64,000 bases of DNA, taken from NCBI RefSeq assembly GCF_040024445.1, contig NZ_CP157276.1, positions 1,116,001 to 1,180,000 of the forward strand. Reading direction: 5' to 3'. Position numbers and translations under genes: made by a program. The notes below the pieces were generated by a model. It ran no database searches. It was not told the origin of the DNA and saw only the letters and a program-made list of their open reading frames with translations. This DNA is from Prescottella soli (GTDB lineage Bacteria > Actinomycetota > Actinomycetes > Mycobacteriales > Mycobacteriaceae). This document shows, in pieces, positions 3,363-52,463 of this stretch. Within the stretch, counting starts at the first letter, position 1. Every line of letters begins with the position of its first letter.

Positions 3363-3376
3363 TGAAACACGTTCCA
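3363..3376. promoter_or_regulatory. KstR-type palindrome upstream of atpB
   Basis: The sequence TGAAACACGTTCCA fits TnnAACnnGTTnnA, the operator consensus recalled for KstR, the TetR-family repressor of cholesterol genes in mycobacteria and rhodococci. It shares its first 12 bases with the site at 31751-31764. It lies just beyond the atpI-like stop and about 350 bases before atpB. Binding by KstR is an inference; another TetR-family regulator could use the same core. Confidence 0.4.
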
Positions 3377-26782: not shown

Positions 26783-27901
26783 TCAGCCGTGCGGCTCGAT
26801 GATCGCGGTGATCGAGTCGATCTCCGCGCTGGGGATCGAGAAGTGTTCGGTGATCGCGACGGTGAGGGTGTCACGGCCGGTGTTCATGTCGAGCAGGAAC
26901 CGCGCGACGACGTCGGAGCCCCACTCGCGGAACTCGAGGTCACGGACCCCGCTGATCGGCCGGTACTGCCCACCCGTCTCGAGCATCGAGCGGATCTCGT
27001 CGCCGGAATCGCCTGTGCGCTGCCCGTTCTCGTAGCGGTGGCAGTGCCGGGCGAGACGCACCTTGCTCGCGTCGTGCGTGACGAGCGAGTCGATGTACTC
27101 GCGCGCCATCGCCACGCGCGGACTGACCGGCGCGGCCGTCGCGGCCAGGTCGGCGATGCCTGTGAGCAGGGGCACCGCGAGATCACGCCGGCAGATCAGC
27201 AGGTCCGGCAGGTAGGGGTGCGGCTCGTTGTACTGCAGCGGAGTGCCGTCGATGCGGGAGCAGTGCAGGCCCGCCGCGAGGGCGACACCCACCGGGGCGG
27301 CCGAGTCCCACTCCCACTGTCCGCCGGCGTGCACGTAGGCGTCGGCGTCGCCGCGCAGCACCGCCATGGCCTTCGCGCCCGCGGAACCCATCGGGGCGAC
27401 GTCACCACCCACGTGCCGCGCGAGCGCGTCCACGAACTCGGGAGGGCGGCTGTCGCTCACCAGAATTCGGGGACGCGGCCGATCCGACGACACCGCCTGC
27501 GAGGTCCCGCTGACGTAGACCTCACCGAGTACGGGTTGCGCAACTGCGGCGGCGGTGATGCCCCGATCGCGTTCCCACAGCGCGACGTGCACGGCCCAGT
27601 CGGCGCGCCCGGCCAGACCGTACTCGCGAGAGCCGTCGAGCGGGTCGATGATCCAGACCCGCGGATTGCCCAGGCGCGCAGGGTCGTCCGCGGATTCCTC
27701 GGACAGGACGGCGTCGCCGGGGCGAGCGACGGCCAACCCTTCCAGCAGGAGGGTGTTGGCCGCCTTGTCGCCCCGGCGGCCCAGCTCCTTGGCCGCCGCC
27801 TTGTCCAACGGGGTCTCCCCCAGCTCGCGGGCCCGGAGCTCGAGCAACAGCTCGCCGGCGCGGGCGGCGAGTTCGGCGGCAAGTTCGGCGTCGGTGGTCA
27901 C
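26783..27901 (-). CDS. cysQ: CysQ-type 3'-phosphoadenosine 5'-phosphate phosphatase fused to a SnoaL/DUF8021-like domain
   Basis: Residues 1 to about 255 are a CysQ (inositol monophosphatase superfamily) enzyme that splits PAP to AMP, clearing the product of PAPS-using reactions. Metal-site motifs are SEES (67-70), DPLDGSRE (86-93) and WEWDSAAP (196-203). The mycobacterial CysQ stops near residue 267. Here the frame continues without a break into about 110 residues (262-372) with RHCHRYENGQ, RYENG-type and DVVARFLLDMN patterns that resemble SnoaL-like/DUF8021 domains. GTG at 27901 overlaps the cysNC stop (GTGA). It is the third gene of the cysD-cysNC-cysQ operon. The fusion is unusual; sequencing error is unlikely because both parts read well. 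Confidence 0.88.
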   Translation of the reverse strand: MTTDAELAAELAARAGELLLELRARELGETPLDKAAAKELGRRGDKAANTLLLEGLAVARPGDAVLSEESADDPARLGNPRVWIIDPLDGSREYGLAGRADWAVHVALWERDRGITAAAVAQPVLGEVYVSGTSQAVSSDRPRPRILVSDSRPPEFVDALARHVGGDVAPMGSAGAKAMAVLRGDADAYVHAGGQWEWDSAAPVGVALAAGLHCSRIDGTPLQYNEPHPYLPDLLICRRDLAVPLLTGIADLAATAAPVSPRVAMAREYIDSLVTHDASKVRLARHCHRYENGQRTGDSGDEIRSMLETGGQYRPISGVRDLEFREWGSDVVARFLLDMNTGRDTLTVAITEHFSIPSAEIDSITAIIEPHG

Positions 27902-29751
27902 AGGTTCAGATACTCCATGATCCTGGCCGCCTGCGCGACCGGGTCGCCGTCCTCGGGCCGCAGCACCAGCTCGGCGTTCTCGGGTGCCTCGTAGGGGTCG
28001 TCGACGCCGGTGAACCCGGTGATCTCCCCCGCCCGCGCCTTGGCGTACATGCCCTTGGGGTCGCGCGCCTCGCACTGTTCGATCGGGGTGTCGACGAACA
28101 CCTCGACGAACGGCAGTCCGGCCTCCTCGTGCAGACGCCGCACGCGGTCGCGGTCGTCGCGATAGGGGCTGATGAGCGAGGCCACCGCGACCATGCCGGC
28201 GTCGGCGAGCAACTGCGCGACGGATCCGACGCGCCGCACGTTCTCGGCCCGGTCCTCGGCGCTGAACCCGAGATCGGCGTTGAGACCGTGCCGCAGGTTG
28301 TCACCGTCGAGCCGGTACGCGGGCACGCCCGCGGCGACCAGGCGTCGTTCGAGTTCGACCGCGACCGTGGACTTCCCGGACGCCGACAGACCGGTGAGCC
28401 ACACCGTCGAGCCGCGGGTCGCCCGCTCGTCGCGGGACACCGCGGCCGAGTGCCACACCACCTTCGATTCCTTGAGGGTGGGCCCGGTGATCATGCCGGC
28501 GGCGACGGTGTTGCCGGTCGTGTCGTCGACCAGGATGAAGCTGCCGGTCACCCGGTTGCGGCGGTACGGGTCGAACAGCAGCGGCTGCTGGGTTCGCAGC
28601 TGGACGCGTCCGATCTCGTTGAGCGTCAACGACTGCGCGGTCTCGTCGCGGTGCAGGGTGTTGACGTCGAGTCGATAGTCGAGCCGGACCACCTGCGCCT
28701 TGGTGGACCGCGTGGTGTGCAGGACGGTGTACCGCGCGTCGGGGCTCAGCGACGACTGCTCGGTGAACCAGCAGATCATCGCGTCGATCTCCTGACCGAC
28801 GAGTGGTCGGTTGTTCGGTCGACAGAGGGTGTCGCCCCGGCTGACGTCGAGGTCGTCGGCGAGTTGCACGCACACGGCCGACGGCGCGAACGCCTCCTTC
28901 ACCTCCTCGCCGCCCGGCCCCCAGATCGCCGAGATCGTCGATGTGAATCCCGACGGCAGCGCCACCACCTCGTCACCAGGCTTGAAGACGCCGCTGGCGA
29001 CGGTGCCCGCATAGCCGCGGAAGTCGTGCAGATCGGCGTCGGTCTGCCGCTGCGGCCGGATCACGTACTGGACGGGCAGCCGCGCGTCGATGAGGTTGCG
29101 GTCGGACGCGATGTGCACGTCCTCGAGGTGGTGCAGCAGCGACGAGCCCTCGTACCACGGCATGTTCTCGGTGCGGGTGACGATGTTGTCGCCCTTGAGC
29201 GCCGACACCGGGATGAACGTGAGGTCGTGGACGTCAAGTTTGGTCGCGAACTGCCCGAACTCGTCCTTGATCTCCTCGAAGCGTTCCTGCGACCAGTCGA
29301 CGAGATCCATCTTGTTGACGCAGAGCACCAGGTGCGGGATCCCCAGCAGCGTCGACAGGAACGCGTGCCGACGCGTCTGCTCGAGCACGCCCTTGCGGGC
29401 GTCGACGAGGATCAGCGCCAGGTCGGCGGTCGAGGCGCCGGTGACCATGTTGCGCGTGTACTGCTCGTGGCCGGGGGTGTCGGCGATGATGAACTTGCGC
29501 TGCGGCGTGGCGAAGTACCGGTGCGCGACGTCGATCGTGATGCCCTGCTCCCGCTCGGCCCGGAGCCCGTCGGTGAGCAGCGCCAGGTCGGTGTACTCGG
29601 TGCCGCGCTCGCGGCTGCTGCGTTCGACCGCCTCGAGCTGGTCCTCGAAGATCGACTTCGAGTCGTACAGCAGACGTCCGATGAGCGTCGACTTGCCGTC
29701 GTCCACGCTGCCCGCCGTCGCGACACGGAGGAGTTGCTGGGTGTGCACCAT
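27898..29751 (-). CDS. cysNC: Bifunctional sulfate adenylyltransferase large subunit / APS kinase
   Basis: This 617-residue fusion has an N-terminal EF-Tu-like GTPase (CysN; P-loop GSVDDGKST at 14-22, DTPGHEQY, NKMD) and a C-terminal APS kinase (CysC; P-loop GLSASGKST at 454-462, with DGDNLRHGLN). With CysD it makes APS from sulfate and ATP, driven by GTP, then phosphorylates APS to PAPS. The ATG at 29751 shares one base with the cysD stop. The presence of the kinase means that the operon delivers PAPS, the sulfuryl donor for sulfotransferases. Confidence 0.96.
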   Translation of the reverse strand: MVHTQQLLRVATAGSVDDGKSTLIGRLLYDSKSIFEDQLEAVERSSRERGTEYTDLALLTDGLRAEREQGITIDVAHRYFATPQRKFIIADTPGHEQYTRNMVTGASTADLALILVDARKGVLEQTRRHAFLSTLLGIPHLVLCVNKMDLVDWSQERFEEIKDEFGQFATKLDVHDLTFIPVSALKGDNIVTRTENMPWYEGSSLLHHLEDVHIASDRNLIDARLPVQYVIRPQRQTDADLHDFRGYAGTVASGVFKPGDEVVALPSGFTSTISAIWGPGGEEVKEAFAPSAVCVQLADDLDVSRGDTLCRPNNRPLVGQEIDAMICWFTEQSSLSPDARYTVLHTTRSTKAQVVRLDYRLDVNTLHRDETAQSLTLNEIGRVQLRTQQPLLFDPYRRNRVTGSFILVDDTTGNTVAAGMITGPTLKESKVVWHSAAVSRDERATRGSTVWLTGLSASGKSTVAVELERRLVAAGVPAYRLDGDNLRHGLNADLGFSAEDRAENVRRVGSVAQLLADAGMVAVASLISPYRDDRDRVRRLHEEAGLPFVEVFVDTPIEQCEARDPKGMYAKARAGEITGFTGVDDPYEAPENAELVLRPEDGDPVAQAARIMEYLNL

Positions 29752-30677
29752 CAGAAGTACCCCTCCTTCTTGCGATCCTCCATGCCGGCCTCGGAGATCC
29801 GGTCGTCCGCGCGGGTGGCGCCGCGCTCGGTGATGCGGCTGGCCGCGACCTCGGTCACGACCTCGGCGGCGGTGGCCGCCGACGACTCGACGCAGCCGGT
29901 GCACGTCGCGTCGCCGACGGTGCGGAACCGCACGAGTTCCGCGCGCGCCTCCTCCCCCGGCAACAGGGCCAGGAACCGCGTGTGCGCCAGCAGCATTCCG
30001 TCGCGCTCGACGACCGGACGCCGGTGCGCGTAGTAGATCGACGGCAGCTCGATCTCCTCCTCGAGGATGTACTGCCAGATGTCGAGCTCGGTCCAGTTCG
30101 ACAGCGGGAAGACCCGGATGTGCTCGCCCCGGCGATGCCGCCCGTTGTAGAGATTCCACAGTTCGGGTCGTTGCGCCTTGGGATCCCACTGGCCGAACTC
30201 GTCGCGGAAGCTGAAGACGCGCTCCTTGGCGCGGGCCTTCTCCTCGTCGCGGCGCGCACCGCCGAAGACGGCGTCGAACTTGTTCTCCCGGATGCCGCGC
30301 AGCAGCGAATGCGTCTGCAGGCGGTTGCGGCTGGCACGCGGCCCGGTCTCGTCGACGACCCGTCCGGCCGCGATGTCGTCCTCGACGCTCGCCACCACGA
30401 GCCGCAGGCCGAGCCCTTCGACGGTCCGGTCGCGGAACTCGATCACCTCGTCGAAGTTGTGACCGGTGTCGACGTGCATCACCGGGAACGGCAGCGCCGC
30501 CGGCCAGAACGCCTTGGCGGCGACGTGGAGCATCACCACGGAGTCCTTGCCGCCGGAGAACAGCAGGACCGGACGCTCGAACGTCGCGGCTACCTCTCGG
30601 AAGATGTGGACCGCCTCGGCCTCGAGCGCCTGCAGGTGCGACAGCTCGTAGGTGGACGGGGATGCCAGGGGTGTCAC
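29751..30677 (-). CDS. cysD: Sulfate adenylyltransferase small subunit
   Basis: This 308-residue PP-loop ATP pyrophosphatase is the catalytic subunit of ATP sulfurylase. The PP-loop SGGKDS is at 41-46, and the typical RRDEEKARAKER and WTELDIWQYI segments follow. The GTG at 30677 gives the usual length of about 300-310; a longer in-frame start at 30773 would run through both promoter palindromes and is rejected. It is first in the cysD-cysNC-cysQ operon. Two palindromes lie 29-91 bases upstream. Confidence 0.95.
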   Translation of the reverse strand: MTPLASPSTYELSHLQALEAEAVHIFREVAATFERPVLLFSGGKDSVVMLHVAAKAFWPAALPFPVMHVDTGHNFDEVIEFRDRTVEGLGLRLVVASVEDDIAAGRVVDETGPRASRNRLQTHSLLRGIRENKFDAVFGGARRDEEKARAKERVFSFRDEFGQWDPKAQRPELWNLYNGRHRRGEHIRVFPLSNWTELDIWQYILEEEIELPSIYYAHRRPVVERDGMLLAHTRFLALLPGEEARAELVRFRTVGDATCTGCVESSAATAAEVVTEVAASRITERGATRADDRISEAGMEDRKKEGYF

Positions 30678-30705
30678 GCGCGGCTCCTCGACGGATCGAC
30701 GCACC

Positions 30706-30731
30706 GGTACATTTTTGTACCGACTCGGTAC
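30706..30731. promoter_or_regulatory. GGTAC-type palindromes in the cysD promoter
   Basis: GGTACA-TTTT-TGTACC (30706-30721) is a perfect 6+4+6 dyad. A second dyad, GTACCGA-C-TCGGTAC (30717-30731), overlaps it, so three GTACC half-sites lie in a row. The first dyad also occurs, with spacer TATT, in the promoter of the DUF1214 operon at 31795-31810. The IclR-family gene between the two operons is the best candidate to bind it. Confidence 0.7.
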
Positions 30732-30754
30732 GCATACTGACTGTGAGCCGAGAA

Positions 30755-30768
30755 TAGAACGCGTTCCA
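30755..30768. promoter_or_regulatory. KstR-type palindrome in the cysD promoter
   Basis: TAGAACGCGTTCCA fits TnnAACnnGTTnnA. It lies 33 bases upstream of the GGTAC dyad and 35 bases past the IclR stop. It matches the recalled consensus of KstR, the steroid-responsive TetR-family repressor. Binding is not shown. Confidence 0.5.
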
Positions 30769-30803
30769 TGCACCGGTCAACGGCCCACATCCCGACCATC
30801 GCG

Positions 30804-31739
30804 TCAGGGGCGGACGGGGCGGCGTCCGCCAACCTCGGCCGTCACCGCATCCGCCGCGGCCACGAGCGCCGCGCCCCGCCGGGCGATCTCCGAGCCGCTG
30901 ATCGAGCCGCCGACGTCGAGCGTCAGCACCAGCGACTGGTGGCCGTCGGCGTCGTAGCACGGCGCGGCGATCAGACTCACCGGATACTCGACGTCGACCG
31001 CGGTCTCGGTGCCGAGGTAGACGCGCTCGCCGAGGCTCGAGACCATCTCGCCGATCAGCTCGCGCAGTTCGGTCGGCAGGTCCCGCCCGGCGACGCCCGC
31101 CATGAGCGAGAAGAGTTTGCGACCGACCGGGGTGAGCCGCTCGACGAGGTATCCGGTGCGCCGACAGTCGTCGACGACGCGCTGCAGCAGGCCGCGATCG
31201 AGCACCACCGGTAGCGCCGGCTCCCGCCGCAGCCACGCCTCGAGGGCGTCGTCGCCACCCCAGATCACGTACATCAGGCCCACAGGCGGCGCGAACGGGT
31301 ACGCCTGTCCCGCCCGGGCCGCGGTCCGCCCGAGCGTCATCCCCGGCGGGGCGACGGTCTCGAGGATCATCACCCGATCACCCACCACCGCGGACGCCGT
31401 GCACACCGCGCCGAACTCGGCGGCGATCTTGTCGAGTTGGGCGCGGGCGATCGGCCCGACGGCGAAGCCGCGCTGAGCGGCGCGACCCGCGGCAATGAGC
31501 GCCGGTCCCAGGCCGTAGGTCTTCGAGACCGGGTCGCGGGTGAGATATCCGCCCGAGACGAGTTCCGAGAGGATGCCGAGACAGGTCGGCTTGCTGATCG
31601 ACAGCGCTCTGGCCAGCTCGGACAGGCCGAAGCGGTGCTCGTCGCGGGCGACGAGGAAGTCGAGCACCTGGACCACCCGCTCGGTGGGCGGGGATCGGCG
31701 CCCGCTCGGCTCACTCGATTCGGCAACCCCGGAAATCAT
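30804..31739 (-). CDS. IclR-family transcriptional regulator
   Basis: This 311-residue regulator has an N-terminal winged helix (about 19-80; FGLSELARALSISKPTCLGILSEL in part) and a C-terminal effector domain (about 100-290) with the IclR pattern, including a cysteine in IAAPCYDADG. It lies between the cysDNCQ operon (same strand, 126 bases downstream) and the divergently read DUF1214-SDR-sulfotransferase operon. The ATG at 31739 is 11 bases from a KstR-type site. It probably governs both neighbours through the shared GGTACA-N4-TGTACC site; the effector is unknown. Confidence 0.9.
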   Translation of the reverse strand: MISGVAESSEPSGRRSPPTERVVQVLDFLVARDEHRFGLSELARALSISKPTCLGILSELVSGGYLTRDPVSKTYGLGPALIAAGRAAQRGFAVGPIARAQLDKIAAEFGAVCTASAVVGDRVMILETVAPPGMTLGRTAARAGQAYPFAPPVGLMYVIWGGDDALEAWLRREPALPVVLDRGLLQRVVDDCRRTGYLVERLTPVGRKLFSLMAGVAGRDLPTELRELIGEMVSSLGERVYLGTETAVDVEYPVSLIAAPCYDADGHQSLVLTLDVGGSISGSEIARRGAALVAAADAVTAEVGGRRPVRP

Positions 31740-31750
31740 TGACCACTCCT

Positions 31751-31764
31751 TGAAACACGTTCTA
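31751..31764. promoter_or_regulatory. KstR-type palindrome between iclR and the DUF1214 operon
   Basis: TGAAACACGTTCTA fits TnnAACnnGTTnnA. It lies in the 92-base divergent region, 11 bases from the IclR start and 30 bases upstream of the GGTAC dyad, so it could serve both promoters. It shares 12 leading bases with the site before atpB. Confidence 0.55.
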
Positions 31765-31770
31765 TCGTCT

Positions 31771-31785
31771 GATCAACGCTTGATC
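31771..31785. promoter_or_regulatory. GATCAA-N3-TTGATC dyad in the divergent promoter
   Basis: GATCAA and TTGATC pair perfectly around CGC. The dyad lies between the KstR-type site and the GGTAC dyad and has no counterpart in the cysD promoter. It may bind a further regulator or be part of the core promoter. Confidence 0.35.
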
Positions 31786-31794
31786 TACCACTGA

Positions 31795-31810
31795 GGTACA
31801 TATTTGTACC
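31795..31810. promoter_or_regulatory. GGTACA-N4-TGTACC palindrome in the DUF1214 operon promoter
   Basis: GGTACATATTTGTACC is a perfect 6+4+6 dyad, 21 bases before the GTG start at 31832 and 10 bases before the AGGAG ribosome site. It equals the cysD promoter dyad in both arms, differing only in one spacer base. It is likely the IclR operator or another shared control site. Confidence 0.7.
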
Positions 31811-31831
31811 ACCAGATCGAAGGAGCAAGGT

Positions 31832-32998
31832 GTGCTGACGGATCCACTGGCCGAGGCCATCGCCGAGGCGGAGAAGCTCGTCGAGAGCGCCCCCCACATC
31901 CGGTCGGAGCAGGATCTGCTGGAGGGAATGCAGTACCTCGCGGGCGGCATCCTCGCGACCGTCCACGCGGCCTGGGCCACCGAGAAGACCCATCCGAGCT
32001 TCCTCGAGGGCACCGGGCCGTTCACCAAGATGGGGCTCGACAACCCCGACACCCTGTACTGGGGCGCGCGAATCAACGACGACGCCGAGTACATCGTGAC
32101 CGGCACCCGCGGCACCACGGCGGACCTGAGTTTCCAGGTGCTCAGCGGCAACTACACGAACGCGAACGTCCCCGGCAGCGAGATCGCCTTCGATGACCGG
32201 GAACTGCACATCGAGGACGACGGCACGTTCGTCGCCACGTTCGGCCCCGGACCGGCGGACGGACGCCGCAACCACTTCACGCTCGCCACCGGTTCGAGCC
32301 AGCTCGTGGTCCGCGAGGTCTACAGCGACTGGAGCCAGAAGCGCGGCACCATCCGCATCGAGCGCGCCGACCGCATCGGCGTCCCGGTGCCGCCACTGAC
32401 GCGCGAGGAGACCGAGAAGCGGTTCGCCCGCGCCGGCAAGGCCCTGGTGAGCCGGGTCAAGACGTGGCTGCAGTTCCCGCAGTGGTTCTACGACAACCTG
32501 CCGGTCAACACGATCACCGCGCCGCGCCTCACGCCGGGCGGCCTGGCGACGCAGTACTCGTCGGTGGGCCACTACGAACTCACCGACGACGAGGCGATGA
32601 TCATCACCGTCCCGAAGTCCGATGCGCCGTACCAGGGCTTCCAACTCGGCAGCCTGTGGTACATCTCGCTCGACTACATCAACCACCAGACGTCGCTGAA
32701 CAACGCCCAGGCGCAGGTCGATCCGGACGGCATGATCCGCATGGTCCTCAGCGAGCGGAACCCGGGCGTCACCAACTGGCTCGAGGCACTCGGCCATCCG
32801 CGTGGCTACCTGCAGTTCCGGTGGCAGCGGACGTCACGCGAGTACACGCCCGAGGACGGCCCGACCGTCGAGGTGGTCAAGTTCGACGAGATCGCCTCGA
32901 AACTGCCTTTCCACGAACACAACAAGATCACGCCGGAGGACTTCGCCGCCCGCATCGCGGAGCGGCAGGCCGCCGTCGCCGACCGAATGCTGGGGTAG
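31832..32998 (+). CDS. DUF1214 protein, Rv3531c-like
   Basis: This 388-residue protein has a C-terminal DUF1214 domain (from about residue 225; DDEAMIITVPKSDAPYQGFQ, with GVTNWLEALGHPRGYLQFRWQR in part near 310-335) and a larger N-terminal part with a beta-rich stretch. Function is unknown. The order DUF1214-SDR-sulfotransferase matches Rv3531c-Rv3530c-Rv3529c, which I recall in the cholesterol catabolic region of M. tuberculosis. The GTG start has AGGAG six bases upstream. The SDR gene follows after two bases. No signal peptide is seen, so it is probably cytosolic. Confidence 0.82.
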   Translation: MLTDPLAEAIAEAEKLVESAPHIRSEQDLLEGMQYLAGGILATVHAAWATEKTHPSFLEGTGPFTKMGLDNPDTLYWGARINDDAEYIVTGTRGTTADLSFQVLSGNYTNANVPGSEIAFDDRELHIEDDGTFVATFGPGPADGRRNHFTLATGSSQLVVREVYSDWSQKRGTIRIERADRIGVPVPPLTREETEKRFARAGKALVSRVKTWLQFPQWFYDNLPVNTITAPRLTPGGLATQYSSVGHYELTDDEAMIITVPKSDAPYQGFQLGSLWYISLDYINHQTSLNNAQAQVDPDGMIRMVLSERNPGVTNWLEALGHPRGYLQFRWQRTSREYTPEDGPTVEVVKFDEIASKLPFHEHNKITPEDFAARIAERQAAVADRMLG

Positions 32999-33000
32999 AC

Positions 33001-33783
33001 ATGACAAATCTGTTGCAGGACAAGGTAATCGTCATCTCGGGTGTGGGACCGGCGCTGGGCCGCACCCTCGCGCTGCGCTGCGCGGAGGCCGGCGCCGATC
33101 TGGTGCTGGCCGCCCGCACGCAGGCGCGGCTGGACGAGGTCGCCAAGGAGGTCACCGACCTGGGTCGACGCGCGGTCACGGTGTCGACCGACATCACCGA
33201 CGACGCCTCGGCGGCGCACCTGCTGGCCGCCACCACCGACGCCTACGGCCGCGTGGACGGGCTGATCAACAACGCGTTCACGGTGCCGTCGATGAAGCCG
33301 TTCGGCCGCACCGACTTCCAGCACATCCGTGACGCGATCGAGCTGACCGTGCTCGGCGCGCTCCGCCTGACCCAGCTGTTCACGCCGGCCCTCGCGGAGT
33401 CCAAGGGTGCGGTGGTGAACGTCAACTCGATGGTGCTGCGACATTCGCAGGAACGGTACGGCAGCTACAAGCTGGCCAAGTCGGCCCTGCTGGCGATGTC
33501 GCAGTCCCTCGCCACCGAGCTCGGCCCGCAGGGAATTCGAGTGAACTCCGTTGCCCCCGGTTACATCTGGGGCGACACCCTGAAGAAGTACTTCGAGCAC
33601 CAGGCCGAGAAGTTCGGCATCACGGTCGACCAGATCTACGAGCACACCGCCGCGAACAGCGACCTCAAGCGCCTGCCGACCACCGACGAGGTGGCCGACG
33701 CCGTGATCTTCCTGGCCTCGCCGATGGCCAACGCGATCACCGGCCAGTGCCTCGACGTCAACTGCGGCGAGTTCCACCACTAG
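33001..33783 (+). CDS. Short-chain dehydrogenase/reductase, Rv3530c-like
   Basis: This 260-residue SDR has the catalytic Ser143, Tyr156 and Lys160 (YKLAK) and the NNA segment at 90-92. The dinucleotide loop reads GVGPALG (14-20), in place of the usual TGxxxGIG, as seen in a small actinobacterial subgroup. It probably oxidises or reduces a hydroxyl/keto group on the substrate that the partner enzymes handle. The ATG at 33001 follows the DUF1214 stop by two bases. Substrate unknown; steroid is an inference from the operon type. Confidence 0.88.
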   Translation: MTNLLQDKVIVISGVGPALGRTLALRCAEAGADLVLAARTQARLDEVAKEVTDLGRRAVTVSTDITDDASAAHLLAATTDAYGRVDGLINNAFTVPSMKPFGRTDFQHIRDAIELTVLGALRLTQLFTPALAESKGAVVNVNSMVLRHSQERYGSYKLAKSALLAMSQSLATELGPQGIRVNSVAPGYIWGDTLKKYFEHQAEKFGITVDQIYEHTAANSDLKRLPTTDEVADAVIFLASPMANAITGQCLDVNCGEFHH

Positions 33784-33805: not shown

Positions 33806-34954
33806 ATGACTGAACGCACGACCGTCGGCACCATCGAGGACCTGCACGCGTCCGCGACCCGGATGACCGGCCTCGACGACTTCGGCGCCGACGATTACAC
33901 CGAGGCACTCGGGGTCCTGCTCGATTCGTACGCGCGGGACGAGGACCTGACGCCGTTCGGCAGCAAGATCTCCCGCGTCTTCCTGCGCGGCGCCCTGGTC
34001 GCACGGCTCCTCAGCGAGGCCGCGTGGAAGCAGTTCCCGGAGCACGCCGAGGCGCCGATCGAGCGCCCCATCTTCGTCACCGGGCTGCCGCGCACGGGCA
34101 CCACCGCGCTGCACCGACTGCTCACGGTGGACCCGGCGCACCAGGGTCTCGAGATGTGGCTGACCGAGATGCCGCAGCCGCGTCCGCCCCGGGACACCTG
34201 GGAATCGAACCCGGTGTTCCAGGCGATCGAGCAGCAGTTCAGCAAGCATCACGTGGAGCATCCCGAGTTCATGGGCGTGCACTACATGTCGGCCGGCGAG
34301 GTCGAGGAGTGCTGGCAGCTGCTGCGGCAGACCTTCAAATCGGTGTCGTACGAGTGTCTGGCGAACCTGCCGACGTACTCGAAGTGGCTCGAGGGCCAGG
34401 ACTGGACCAACGCGTACGAGCGGCACCGGAAGAACCTGCAGTTGATCGGCCTGCACGACCAGGACCGGCGCTGGGTTCTCAAGAACCCGAGCCACCTGTT
34501 CGCGCTCGACGAGCTGATGGCCGTGTACCCGGACGCCCTGATCATCCAGACACACCGCCCGCCGCGCACGCTCGTCCCGTCGATGTGCAGCCTCGCCGAG
34601 CAGGCCACCGAGGGGTGGTCGAACAAGTTCCGCGGCGAGGTCATCGGTCGCAGCCAGCTCGACCTGTGGGCACGTGGGCTCGAGGACTTCACCGCAGCGC
34701 GGTCGAAGTACGACCCCGCCCAGTTCATCGATGTCGACTACAGCGACTTCGTCGCCGATCCCCTGGGCACGGTGGAGAAGGTCTATTCGCACTTCTCGAT
34801 CCCGCTGTCGGCGCAGGCGCACCGCGCGATGGAGGACATGCACGCGGAGAGCCGGTCGGGCAGCCGCAAGCCCGCACACAAGTACACCCTCGAGGAGTAC
34901 GGGCTCACGGCCGAGGAAGTGGACGAGCGTTTCGGCGACTACGCGGGCGGCTGA
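33806..34954 (+). CDS. PAPS-dependent sulfotransferase family protein, Rv3529c-like
   Basis: This 382-residue protein has the 5'-phosphosulfate-binding loop GLPRTGTTA (93-101), and a later region TLVPSMCSL preceded by THRPPR fits the 3'-phosphate site. It would transfer a sulfuryl group from PAPS to a hydroxyl acceptor. A ribosome site (GAAGGAG) precedes the ATG. It is the third gene of the trio, 22 bases after the SDR. PAPS synthesis and PAP removal are coded just upstream, beyond the IclR gene, which supports real sulfotransferase activity. The acceptor is not known. Confidence 0.87.
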   Translation: MTERTTVGTIEDLHASATRMTGLDDFGADDYTEALGVLLDSYARDEDLTPFGSKISRVFLRGALVARLLSEAAWKQFPEHAEAPIERPIFVTGLPRTGTTALHRLLTVDPAHQGLEMWLTEMPQPRPPRDTWESNPVFQAIEQQFSKHHVEHPEFMGVHYMSAGEVEECWQLLRQTFKSVSYECLANLPTYSKWLEGQDWTNAYERHRKNLQLIGLHDQDRRWVLKNPSHLFALDELMAVYPDALIIQTHRPPRTLVPSMCSLAEQATEGWSNKFRGEVIGRSQLDLWARGLEDFTAARSKYDPAQFIDVDYSDFVADPLGTVEKVYSHFSIPLSAQAHRAMEDMHAESRSGSRKPAHKYTLEEYGLTAEEVDERFGDYAGG

Positions 34955-50675: not shown

Positions 50676-50786
50676 GGGTTTGATCCCGACAATTGCCCGA
50701 ACCGCAGGTAGAGGGCGGATTCCTCGGACACAATGGCGATCCCAGCGCCTGGATTCAGCGATCGCTTCCCGGACGGAGATCAGCCG

Positions 50787-52463
50787 ATGGACTCCCTGAG
50801 CGAACCGAGTCTCGACACCCTCGATCAACCGTTCTCGCGTCGGACCTTCCTCGGCGGCGCCGGCGCCCTGCTCGTCGCGGGCATGGCGGGCGCGACCACC
50901 CACGCGACCGCGTCACCGCGACCCGCGCGCGCGGGTCAGCCCGGCGAGCTGCCCCACCGCCCCAACATCGTCGTCGTGATCACCGACCAGGAACGCCTAC
51001 CGATGTTCTGGCCCGGAGGCTGGCCCGAACAGAACCTGCCCAATCGCAAGCGCCTCGCCGACACCGGACTGTCGTTCGACAACGCGTTCTGCAACGCGGC
51101 CATGTGCTCCCCCAGTCGCAGCACGTTCTTCACCGGGCTCTACCCCGCCCAGCACGGTGTCACCGCGACGCTCACCGAGGGCAGCACCGTCTCGCCCACC
51201 GAGCCGACCCTGCCGCTGGACATCCAGAACATGGCCAGGCTGCTCGACTCCGCCGGGTACAACGTGCATTACCGGGGCAAGTGGCACATGAGCAAGGGCG
51301 CCGACGGCGGCGATCCCTCCAGCGCGGAGGTCGCCGCGTACGGGTTTCAGGGCTGGATTCCACCGGAGGGCGGCCAGGACACCAACCCCGACCACTTCGG
51401 CGGTGGCTGCGCCGACCTCGACGGCCGCTACGCGTCCGAGGCCGTCGGCTTCCTCCGCGGCCTCGACCCGAACGACGACCGCCCGTTCGCGCTGATCGTC
51501 TCGTTCGTCAACCCGCACGACGTCCTCGCGTACCCGCAGACGTGGGACGCGATCAACGGCACGTGCGACAACTACGGCTCCGACGCCCCCGGCATCTTCG
51601 AGCAGGGCATAGACCTCCCCCCGACCTACGACGAGTCCCTGGCGCTGAACTTCAAGCCCACCGCTCAGATCCAGTCGCAGGTACTGCTCGCCGCCGGACT
51701 CGGCCCGCTGCCCGGCCAGGAGTCGGCCCGCAACTACGTGAACTTCTACGCGTACATGCACAGGGTGGTCGACGAGCACATCGGCGCGGTGCTCGACGCC
51801 CTCGAATCCCGTCCCGGGATGCGTGATTCGACGGTCGTGATCCGGATGTCCGACCACGGGGAGATGGGTATGTCGCACGGGGGGCTGCGCCAGAAGGTGT
51901 TCAACGCGTACGAGGAGACGCTGCGGGTGCCGATGGTGATCAGCAACCCGGTGATGTTCCCGCAGCCGGTGCACACCGGAGCGCTCGCATCGCTGATCGA
52001 CGTCATGCCCACCCTCGCAGCACTGGCGCACGTTCCGGACCGGTCCGCGTGGGACTTCAAGGGTGTGGATCTGATGCCGATCGTCACCGATGCCGCCGCG
52101 AACCCGAGCGCGCCCAGTGCCGAGGTGCAGGACGTCGTGCACTTCACCTACGACGACCAGAACTGCGCCACCCCGGACGGGCAGAACATCGTCACGCAGC
52201 CCAACCACATGCGCACCATCCGCGACCACCGGTGGAAGTACTCGGCGTACTTCGACCCGGCCGGTGTCACGCCACCGCAGTACGAGATGTACGACCTGCA
52301 GACCGACCCGCTGGAACTGCACAACCGCGCCGACCCGCTGAACATCGGCTACTTCGATCCGGTCCAGGCGGCCCGGATGCACGCGACCCTGTTCGAGGTC
52401 ATGAACAGGTGCGGCACCACACCCCAGCGCGGACTCGCACCCCTTCCGCTCGTCGGTTCGTGA
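50787..52463 (+). CDS. Tat-exported type I sulfatase
   Basis: This 558-residue protein has a twin-arginine signal (SRRTFLGG, Arg18-Arg19, hydrophobic core to about residue 37, A-x-A sites after). The sulfatase active site CSPSR is at 107-111, whose Cys107 would become formylglycine. Other metal ligands lie in VVVITDQER, SFVNPHD and MSDHGEMG. It would release sulfate from an outer-face sulfate ester. The ATG at 50787 (GGAG eight bases before) is chosen; an upstream ATG at 50733 lacks a ribosome site. The formylglycine-generating enzyme is not in the window. It lies 16 kb from the sulfotransferase operon. Confidence 0.9.
   Translation: MDSLSEPSLDTLDQPFSRRTFLGGAGALLVAGMAGATTHATASPRPARAGQPGELPHRPNIVVVITDQERLPMFWPGGWPEQNLPNRKRLADTGLSFDNAFCNAAMCSPSRSTFFTGLYPAQHGVTATLTEGSTVSPTEPTLPLDIQNMARLLDSAGYNVHYRGKWHMSKGADGGDPSSAEVAAYGFQGWIPPEGGQDTNPDHFGGGCADLDGRYASEAVGFLRGLDPNDDRPFALIVSFVNPHDVLAYPQTWDAINGTCDNYGSDAPGIFEQGIDLPPTYDESLALNFKPTAQIQSQVLLAAGLGPLPGQESARNYVNFYAYMHRVVDEHIGAVLDALESRPGMRDSTVVIRMSDHGEMGMSHGGLRQKVFNAYEETLRVPMVISNPVMFPQPVHTGALASLIDVMPTLAALAHVPDRSAWDFKGVDLMPIVTDAAANPSAPSAEVQDVVHFTYDDQNCATPDGQNIVTQPNHMRTIRDHRWKYSAYFDPAGVTPPQYEMYDLQTDPLELHNRADPLNIGYFDPVQAARMHATLFEVMNRCGTTPQRGLAPLPLVGS

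Follow-up and report, generated by a model that had tools for sequence, protein, structure and literature searches.

Genes of the locus

We analysed a stretch of 64,000 nucleotides from the genome of Prescottella soli, which we call the window. On its minus strand a gene for an IclR-family regulator is followed by cysD, cysNC and a cysQ-like gene, and on the plus strand lie an Rv3531c-like gene, a short-chain dehydrogenase (SDR) gene and a gene for a Stf1-like sulfotransferase (Table 1). The initial annotation had described two operons flanking the IclR gene. This is correct for the divergent Rv3531c-like promoter, but cysD is found on the same strand as iclR and downstream of it. Since iclR (31739-30804) and cysD (30677-29751) are co-oriented, the cysD promoter sits between the two genes.

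Table 1. Genes and predicted regulatory elements of the locus (window positions)
Feature	Position	Strand	Support
cysQ-like PAP phosphatase with C-terminal extension	26783..27901	-	Pfam Inositol_P E 5e-29
cysNC, sulfate adenylyltransferase large subunit fused to APS kinase	27898..29751	-	APS_kinase E 2e-68
cysD, sulfate adenylyltransferase small subunit	29751..30677	-	NCBIfam TIGR02039 E 4e-139 over 29751-30674; GTG start 30677 by eye
GGTACA-N4-TGTACC dyad, cysD promoter; predicted IclR operator in predicted leader	30706..30721		pattern match
Predicted cysD promoter TTGACC-N18-TATTCT	30751..30780	-	promoter scan
KstR-type operator, cysD promoter	30755..30768		pattern match
IclR-family regulator gene, 311 aa	30804..31739	-	Pfam HTH_IclR (PF09339) E 9e-8; PDB 5tjj (IclR family) E 5e-14
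Predicted Rv3531c-like operon promoter TTGACC-N18-TATCGT	31739..31768	+	promoter scan
KstR-type operator, Rv3531c-like operon promoter, also adjoining iclR start	31751..31764		pattern match
GGTACA-N4-TGTACC dyad, Rv3531c-like operon promoter; predicted IclR operator in predicted leader	31795..31810		pattern match
Rv3531c/MSMEG_5932-like gene, 388 aa	31832..32998	+	PDB 6ans E 4e-29
Short-chain dehydrogenase (SDR), start 32995 or 33001	32995..33783	+	NF005909 E 9e-130
Stf1-like sulfotransferase	33806..34954	+	Pfam Sulfotransfer_3 E 6e-59; PDB 2zq5 E 1e-171

The sulfotransferase carries the sulfotransferase domain and is closely related over residues 3-377 to PDB 2zq5, which we take to be Stf1. 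The cysQ-like protein matches the NCBIfam CysQ model with E 2e-17 over part of its length, below the curated cut-off. Its C-terminal extension of about 115 residues (window 26783-27130, minus strand) has no Pfam match at E 10 and no credible match in the PDB (best E 1.6). The order of helices and strands gives a SnoaL-like impression in the AlphaFold model, a model of low confidence (mean pLDDT of the CysQ model 57.9, 6 close sequences).

According to PMC3141025, APS kinase makes PAPS, sulfotransferases consume it and CysQ clears PAP. The genes around iclR are one biochemical unit, namely an operon for PAPS synthesis and recycling which faces a sulfotransferase operon, with iclR in between. 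This unifying function had been left out of the initial annotation, whose regulatory reading is supported. The genome has two further cysD loci (G000:C1:2723897 and 5121251), one with cysH and a CysN that lacks APS kinase and one with a CysQ-like and a CysNC-type frame. The cysD-cysNC-cysQ set of the window therefore looks dedicated, and judging from these other loci it is probably not required for assimilation as such. A sulfatase gene (50733-52463, plus strand, Pfam E 2e-47) is found 16 kb away from the sulfotransferase gene and is a possible desulfation partner.

The first gene of the plus-strand operon had been labelled DUF1214. This label is weak, as the match to PF06742 (E 0.015, 16.2 bits) does not reach the Pfam gathering score of 25. 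Orthologue of Rv3531c/MSMEG_5932 is the better name. The orthology is based on the published RT-qPCR primers for MSMEG_5932, which would give the 131-bp amplicon in 9 of 12 IclR-bearing loci of genus label g50, each primer having 0 to 5 mismatches; on the window DNA they fit poorly (7 and 6 mismatches). The translated primers contain TSLN and GYLQF, and both are present in the Rv3531c-like protein of the window. With 27/29 identical bases, the IclR-less g50 locus L184 matches the oligonucleotide used in the Rv3531c EMSA. Because the primers and the oligonucleotide map to g50 loci, this label probably stands for Mycobacterium.

The regulator has the helix-turn-helix domain of the IclR family (32.2 bits, cut-off 22). 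For the C-terminal effector domain we found no Pfam match at E 0.001; the match to PDB 5tjj covers residues 22-199 and the AlphaFold model is poor (mean pLDDT 46.7, 7 close sequences). We discarded the recognition helix as a marker of the cassette, since its sequence KPTCLGI also occurs in IclR paralogues away from the cassette.

Palindromes and promoters

Each of the two promoters had been proposed to carry a KstR-type palindrome and, nearer to the gene, a GGTACA-N4-TGTACC dyad. All four coordinates proved exact: TnnAACnnGTTnnA is present in both promoters, the dyads are as described, and the gap between KstR-type site and dyad is 33 bases at cysD and 30 bases at the Rv3531c-like gene. The dyad GGTACANNNNTGTACC has two copies in the 5,475,811 bases of the genome, both at this locus, and the reversed control pattern has none, so that the possible objection of many unrelated copies does not apply. 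The claim that the twin layout is hard to explain by chance also holds, as 0.62 dyads with at most two mismatches are expected in the window and three are found, two of them exact, and the layout is kept in other genomes. We reject a chance origin, because the dyad copies are confined to the locus and conserved in the genus and in a set of 134 loci (see below). The relaxed pattern GGTNCANNNNTGNACC occurs five times in the genome versus two times for its control; the three copies outside the locus lack an AT-rich core like that of the locus dyads.

The KstR-type pattern TNNAACNNGTTNNA has 60 genome copies versus 7 for the reversed control. We examined 20 genome regions holding such sites, chosen among the matches listed. 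Ten of the 17 distinct adjoining proteins that were scanned had a match and seven were frames without one; the matches include the families of 3-oxosteroid 1-dehydrogenase, Steroid_dh, acyl-CoA dehydrogenase (two), thiolase, P450 and aldehyde dehydrogenase. These families are as expected for a sterol regulon. Near a third exact KstR-type palindrome of the window (3363-3376), at a distance of about 100 bp, an ATP synthase A chain gene starts.

A KstR orthologue is present in the genome (E 8e-87 to PDB 3mnl and 4e-86 to 5cw8, named KstR), and its gene has a KstR motif 43 bases upstream. The ligand of KstR is a steroid-CoA. That KstR controls Rv3531c is already known: it binds the Rv3531c promoter in EMSA, and in a kstR mutant MSMEG_5932 is derepressed 6-fold by RT-qPCR, in a range of 6- to 155-fold over 11 motifs (PMC1995591). 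If M. smegmatis has this IclR, the position of MSMEG_5932 at the low end of the range is compatible with another lock on the promoter. We found published KstR binding and derepression for mycobacterial Rv3531c/MSMEG_5932 (PMC1995591) and none for cysD.

A promoter scan of positions 30650-31900 returned only two promoter-like sites, versus 0.1 expected. Both KstR palindromes occupy the promoter spacer and cover two bases of the -10 element. Both dyads are downstream of the promoter-like sites, within the predicted leaders, and would lie at about +20 to +40 if the start is 6-7 bases beyond the -10 element. The start codon of iclR touches the -35 element of the opposite, Rv3531c-like promoter. 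Across relatives, TTGAC stands immediately 5′ of the KstR motif in 102/122 Rv3531c-like promoters and 91/94 cysD promoters which have the motif, and in 16 of 2680 random stretches.

Conservation in relatives

The window genome stands close to that of Prescottella defluvii, with an IclR of 95% identity. The exact dyad is found at the locus in all 14 genomes of the genus, with 25 sites in total, all beside iclR. At the Rv3531c-like promoter both motifs are present in 14/14, so the possible objection that close relatives lose both motifs does not apply there. At the cysD promoter of the same genomes conservation holds for the most part: most keep the motifs, but L057 is without both, and L014 and L015 are without the KstR motif. 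Among six named relatives (two Rhodococcus species, one Rhodococcus sp. and three Prescottella) exact dyads are present on both sides in all six, and the KstR motif in 6/6 at the Rv3531c-like promoter and in 4/6 at cysD.

In a family sample of 301 genomes, 133 have an IclR orthologue (threshold E 1e-50), 79 an exact dyad and 227 an Rv3531c-like gene. By a hand tally that includes dyads away from this locus, the exact dyad occurs in 65/133 IclR-bearing versus 14/168 other genomes. The conservation set consisted of 134 loci from 132 genomes with 14 genus labels, in which iclR adjoins the Rv3531c-like gene in divergent orientation. Scored as GGTNCA-N4-TGNACC with at most one mismatch, the relaxed dyad is present in 125 of them (97 without mismatch, 28 with one), compared with 0/134 for the reversed pattern and 0.22% for mononucleotide shuffles. 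The KstR motif is present at the same tolerance in 122/134, exact in 120 and one off in two. At the cysD promoters the corresponding numbers are 77/104 for the relaxed dyad and 94/104 for KstR. All four sites are found in 71/104, spread over six genus labels (KstR exact at the Rv3531c-like promoter and with at most one mismatch at cysD). The cysD dyad is absent in 27/104, including 19/19 g22 and 4/4 g15 loci.

The offsets between the elements cluster, at 42-46 in 90/115 and at 42-50 in 73/74 cases. Where both elements are present (115 loci) the dyad is nearer to the gene than the KstR site in 111, with an offset of 22 in 15 loci, and upstream of it in four (offsets -41, -36). Several more g50 loci appear swapped with a dyad at two or more mismatches. 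In the g50 loci L147, L148, L150, L152, L157, L161 and L164 the order is swapped, with the best dyad-like match about 50 bases and the KstR site about 10 bases before the gene start. Thus a downstream roadblock is not universal.

Dyad and iclR gene

We compared these loci with 22 chosen loci which have the Rv3531c-like gene without an adjacent IclR orthologue, using 150 bp around the Rv3531c-like gene. The dyad with at most one mismatch is found in 0/22 of the IclR-less loci versus 122/134 with IclR (Fisher p 1.6e-18, a value that ignores kinship, the 22 being a chosen subset), and the KstR motif is retained in 14/22. Within single genus labels the dyad is present with IclR versus without in 15/15 versus 0/2 (g48), 25/25 versus 0/1 (g23), 8/8 versus 0/4 (g6) and 14/20 versus 0/6 (g50). 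In label g10 a weak IclR relative (66-72 bits) is encoded several kb off in four of seven loci, and the KstR motif is missing from all seven. There are also counter-cases among the IclR-less loci: near cysD the relaxed dyad is kept without mismatch in L194 and with one mismatch in L186. On the whole, sequence comparison couples the dyad to the presence of the IclR gene.

In the g48 genomes L187 and L188 the fetched stretch has no match to iclR, cysD or cysNC, and cysQ is kept beside the Rv3531c-like gene; the KstR site is intact and the dyad has decayed. In L187 a remnant of the dyad, with two mismatches, is still seen where the dyad would be expected.

Other genomes have extra exact dyads elsewhere. 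We followed seven places among the matches listed, and the KstR motif was found in none of these seven stretches. Four g6 genomes (L231 3930, L232 3830, L233 3851, L234 3687) share a similar gene layout around the extra dyad, and L231, the one g6 stretch scanned, has Lon_C and Zincin_2 matches near it. In two g9 genomes Abhydrolase_3 adjoins the extra dyad, in L235 together with Bac_luciferase. One g23 dyad has a short-chain dehydrogenase-type frame nearby.

Discussion

A switch with two inputs, KstR and the local IclR, had been proposed for this locus, and it is the best reading of the sequences, as a KstR orthologue is present and the dyad tracks the IclR gene. The anatomy of the locus, its conservation and the link between dyad and IclR gene are what we observe. 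We suggest that they reflect a conserved two-regulator gate on steroid-linked sulfonation, for which we infer the binding, sign, ligand and substrate, and give this reading a probability of about 0.7.

The gate might work as follows. The cysD-cysNC-cysQ operon would make and recycle the sulfate donor PAPS, and the operon of the Rv3531c-like protein, the SDR and the Stf1-like sulfotransferase would spend it on a substrate that is presumably derived from a steroid or lipid. In each promoter a predicted TTGACC -35 element would be followed by a KstR operator within the spacer, touching the -10 element, and by an IclR operator some 20-40 bases past the predicted start. KstR, a known repressor, could bar the entry of the polymerase here until a steroid-derived ligand is present. 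The IclR protein made from the gene between the operons would bind the downstream dyads, its predicted operators. As the dyad is downstream of the start, IclR is most likely a second repressor, which would be freed by a signal of its own, so that PAPS could be made together with its user.

The same two regulators might also act with IclR as an activator or dual regulator, or the dyad might mainly serve the autoregulation of iclR. In favour of this, some g50 loci have the dyad upstream of the KstR site and promoter, and iclR is divergent with its start codon against the opposite -35 element. However, both the window and 111/115 loci have the dyad nearer to the gene than the KstR site, and there is a second copy at cysD, which is distant from the iclR start. 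We consider this arrangement rather unlikely. It is even less probable that a regulator other than the local IclR binds the dyad. The spacing departs from the IclR group-1 consensus, exact dyads occur elsewhere in some IclR-less genomes, and a TAC-N6-GTA palindrome of equal spacing is described as a new motif candidate upstream of M. tuberculosis fatty-acid genes (PMC3388012). Against this, the dyad is absent from the Rv3531c-like promoter in the 22 loci without an adjacent IclR orthologue, and in the window genome it is confined to the locus.

The KstR-type sites TnnAACnnGTTnnA could for their part be bound by another TetR protein, and KstR paralogues are indeed reported for relatives of M. 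tuberculosis (PMC3388012). But the sites have the exact KstR consensus, the KstR orthologue has the motif at its own promoter and KstR binds the orthologous mycobacterial promoter (PMC1995591), which makes another TetR protein improbable. Finally, the dyad might act as an RNA hairpin instead of a DNA operator, as it is part of the predicted leaders and can form a 6-bp stem (leader z-scores -2.05 and -0.95). Yet at least one arm position, mostly position 4, would be unpaired in 77/202 sites (21/42 distinct sequences), and in some genomes the dyad is upstream of the promoter. We regard a hairpin as highly improbable.

The gate of KstR and IclR allows a more tentative idea. Sulfonation could be a regulated branch of actinobacterial steroid catabolism, with the PAPS factory and Stf1 switched on only if KstR senses its steroid ligand and IclR senses a second metabolite; we think this rather less likely than not. 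If true, the second metabolite could for instance be the substrate of Stf1 or else a signal, either sulfated or of PAP type, and the regulator at the dyad would report the need for sulfonation.

Among the open-licence papers listed in our searches we found none which joins IclR, KstR and a sulfotransferase module, nor a description of the IclR-linked operator, the PAPS operon or the twin KstR-plus-IclR layout. The IclR group of this locus may be listed in the supplementary tables of PMC8222616. Group-1 operators follow the consensus GKTYCRYW3-4RYGRAMC, in which the TYC and GRA boxes are 7-8 bases apart (PMC8222616). The sites in the window read GTAC-6-GTAC and resemble this consensus in their half-sites only. 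The half-site GGTYCA of many relatives fits GKTYCR, and the dyad is centred about 30-37 bases ahead of the start codon, within the usual -20 to -80; unlike in group 1, the half-sites are 1-2 bases closer and GGTACA of the window has A at the Y position.

The known system closest in its regulation is the KstR regulon member Rv3531c/MSMEG_5932, an orthologous gene with a KstR motif; unlike here, the available text of PMC1995591 describes no second operator, and 'cysd' does not occur in its main text. In its enzymes the locus is similar to CysN2C-CysD2 with Stf0 of Rhodococcus qingshengii IGTS8 (PMC8557817), where a PAPS-making complex is also encoded beside a sulfotransferase and a separate assimilatory set exists. 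That sulfotransferase, however, is Stf0 and not Stf1, the finding was made in dibenzothiophene cultures, and the available text describes no control by KstR or IclR. The sulfotransferase of the window instead resembles Stf1 (Rv3529c; name as in PMC8882603), with the match to 2zq5 at E 1e-171. Rv3529c-Rv3531c are counted among the cholesterol-related mycobacterial genes in PMC6429209, which assigns them no metabolic role in its available text. In the window, twin promoters connect these same genes with a sulfate-activation operon and a regulator of their own, which points to PAPS-dependent sulfonation as their function. With one regulator and two target promoters, the locus offers a clean genetic handle on these genes outside the tuberculosis bacterium.
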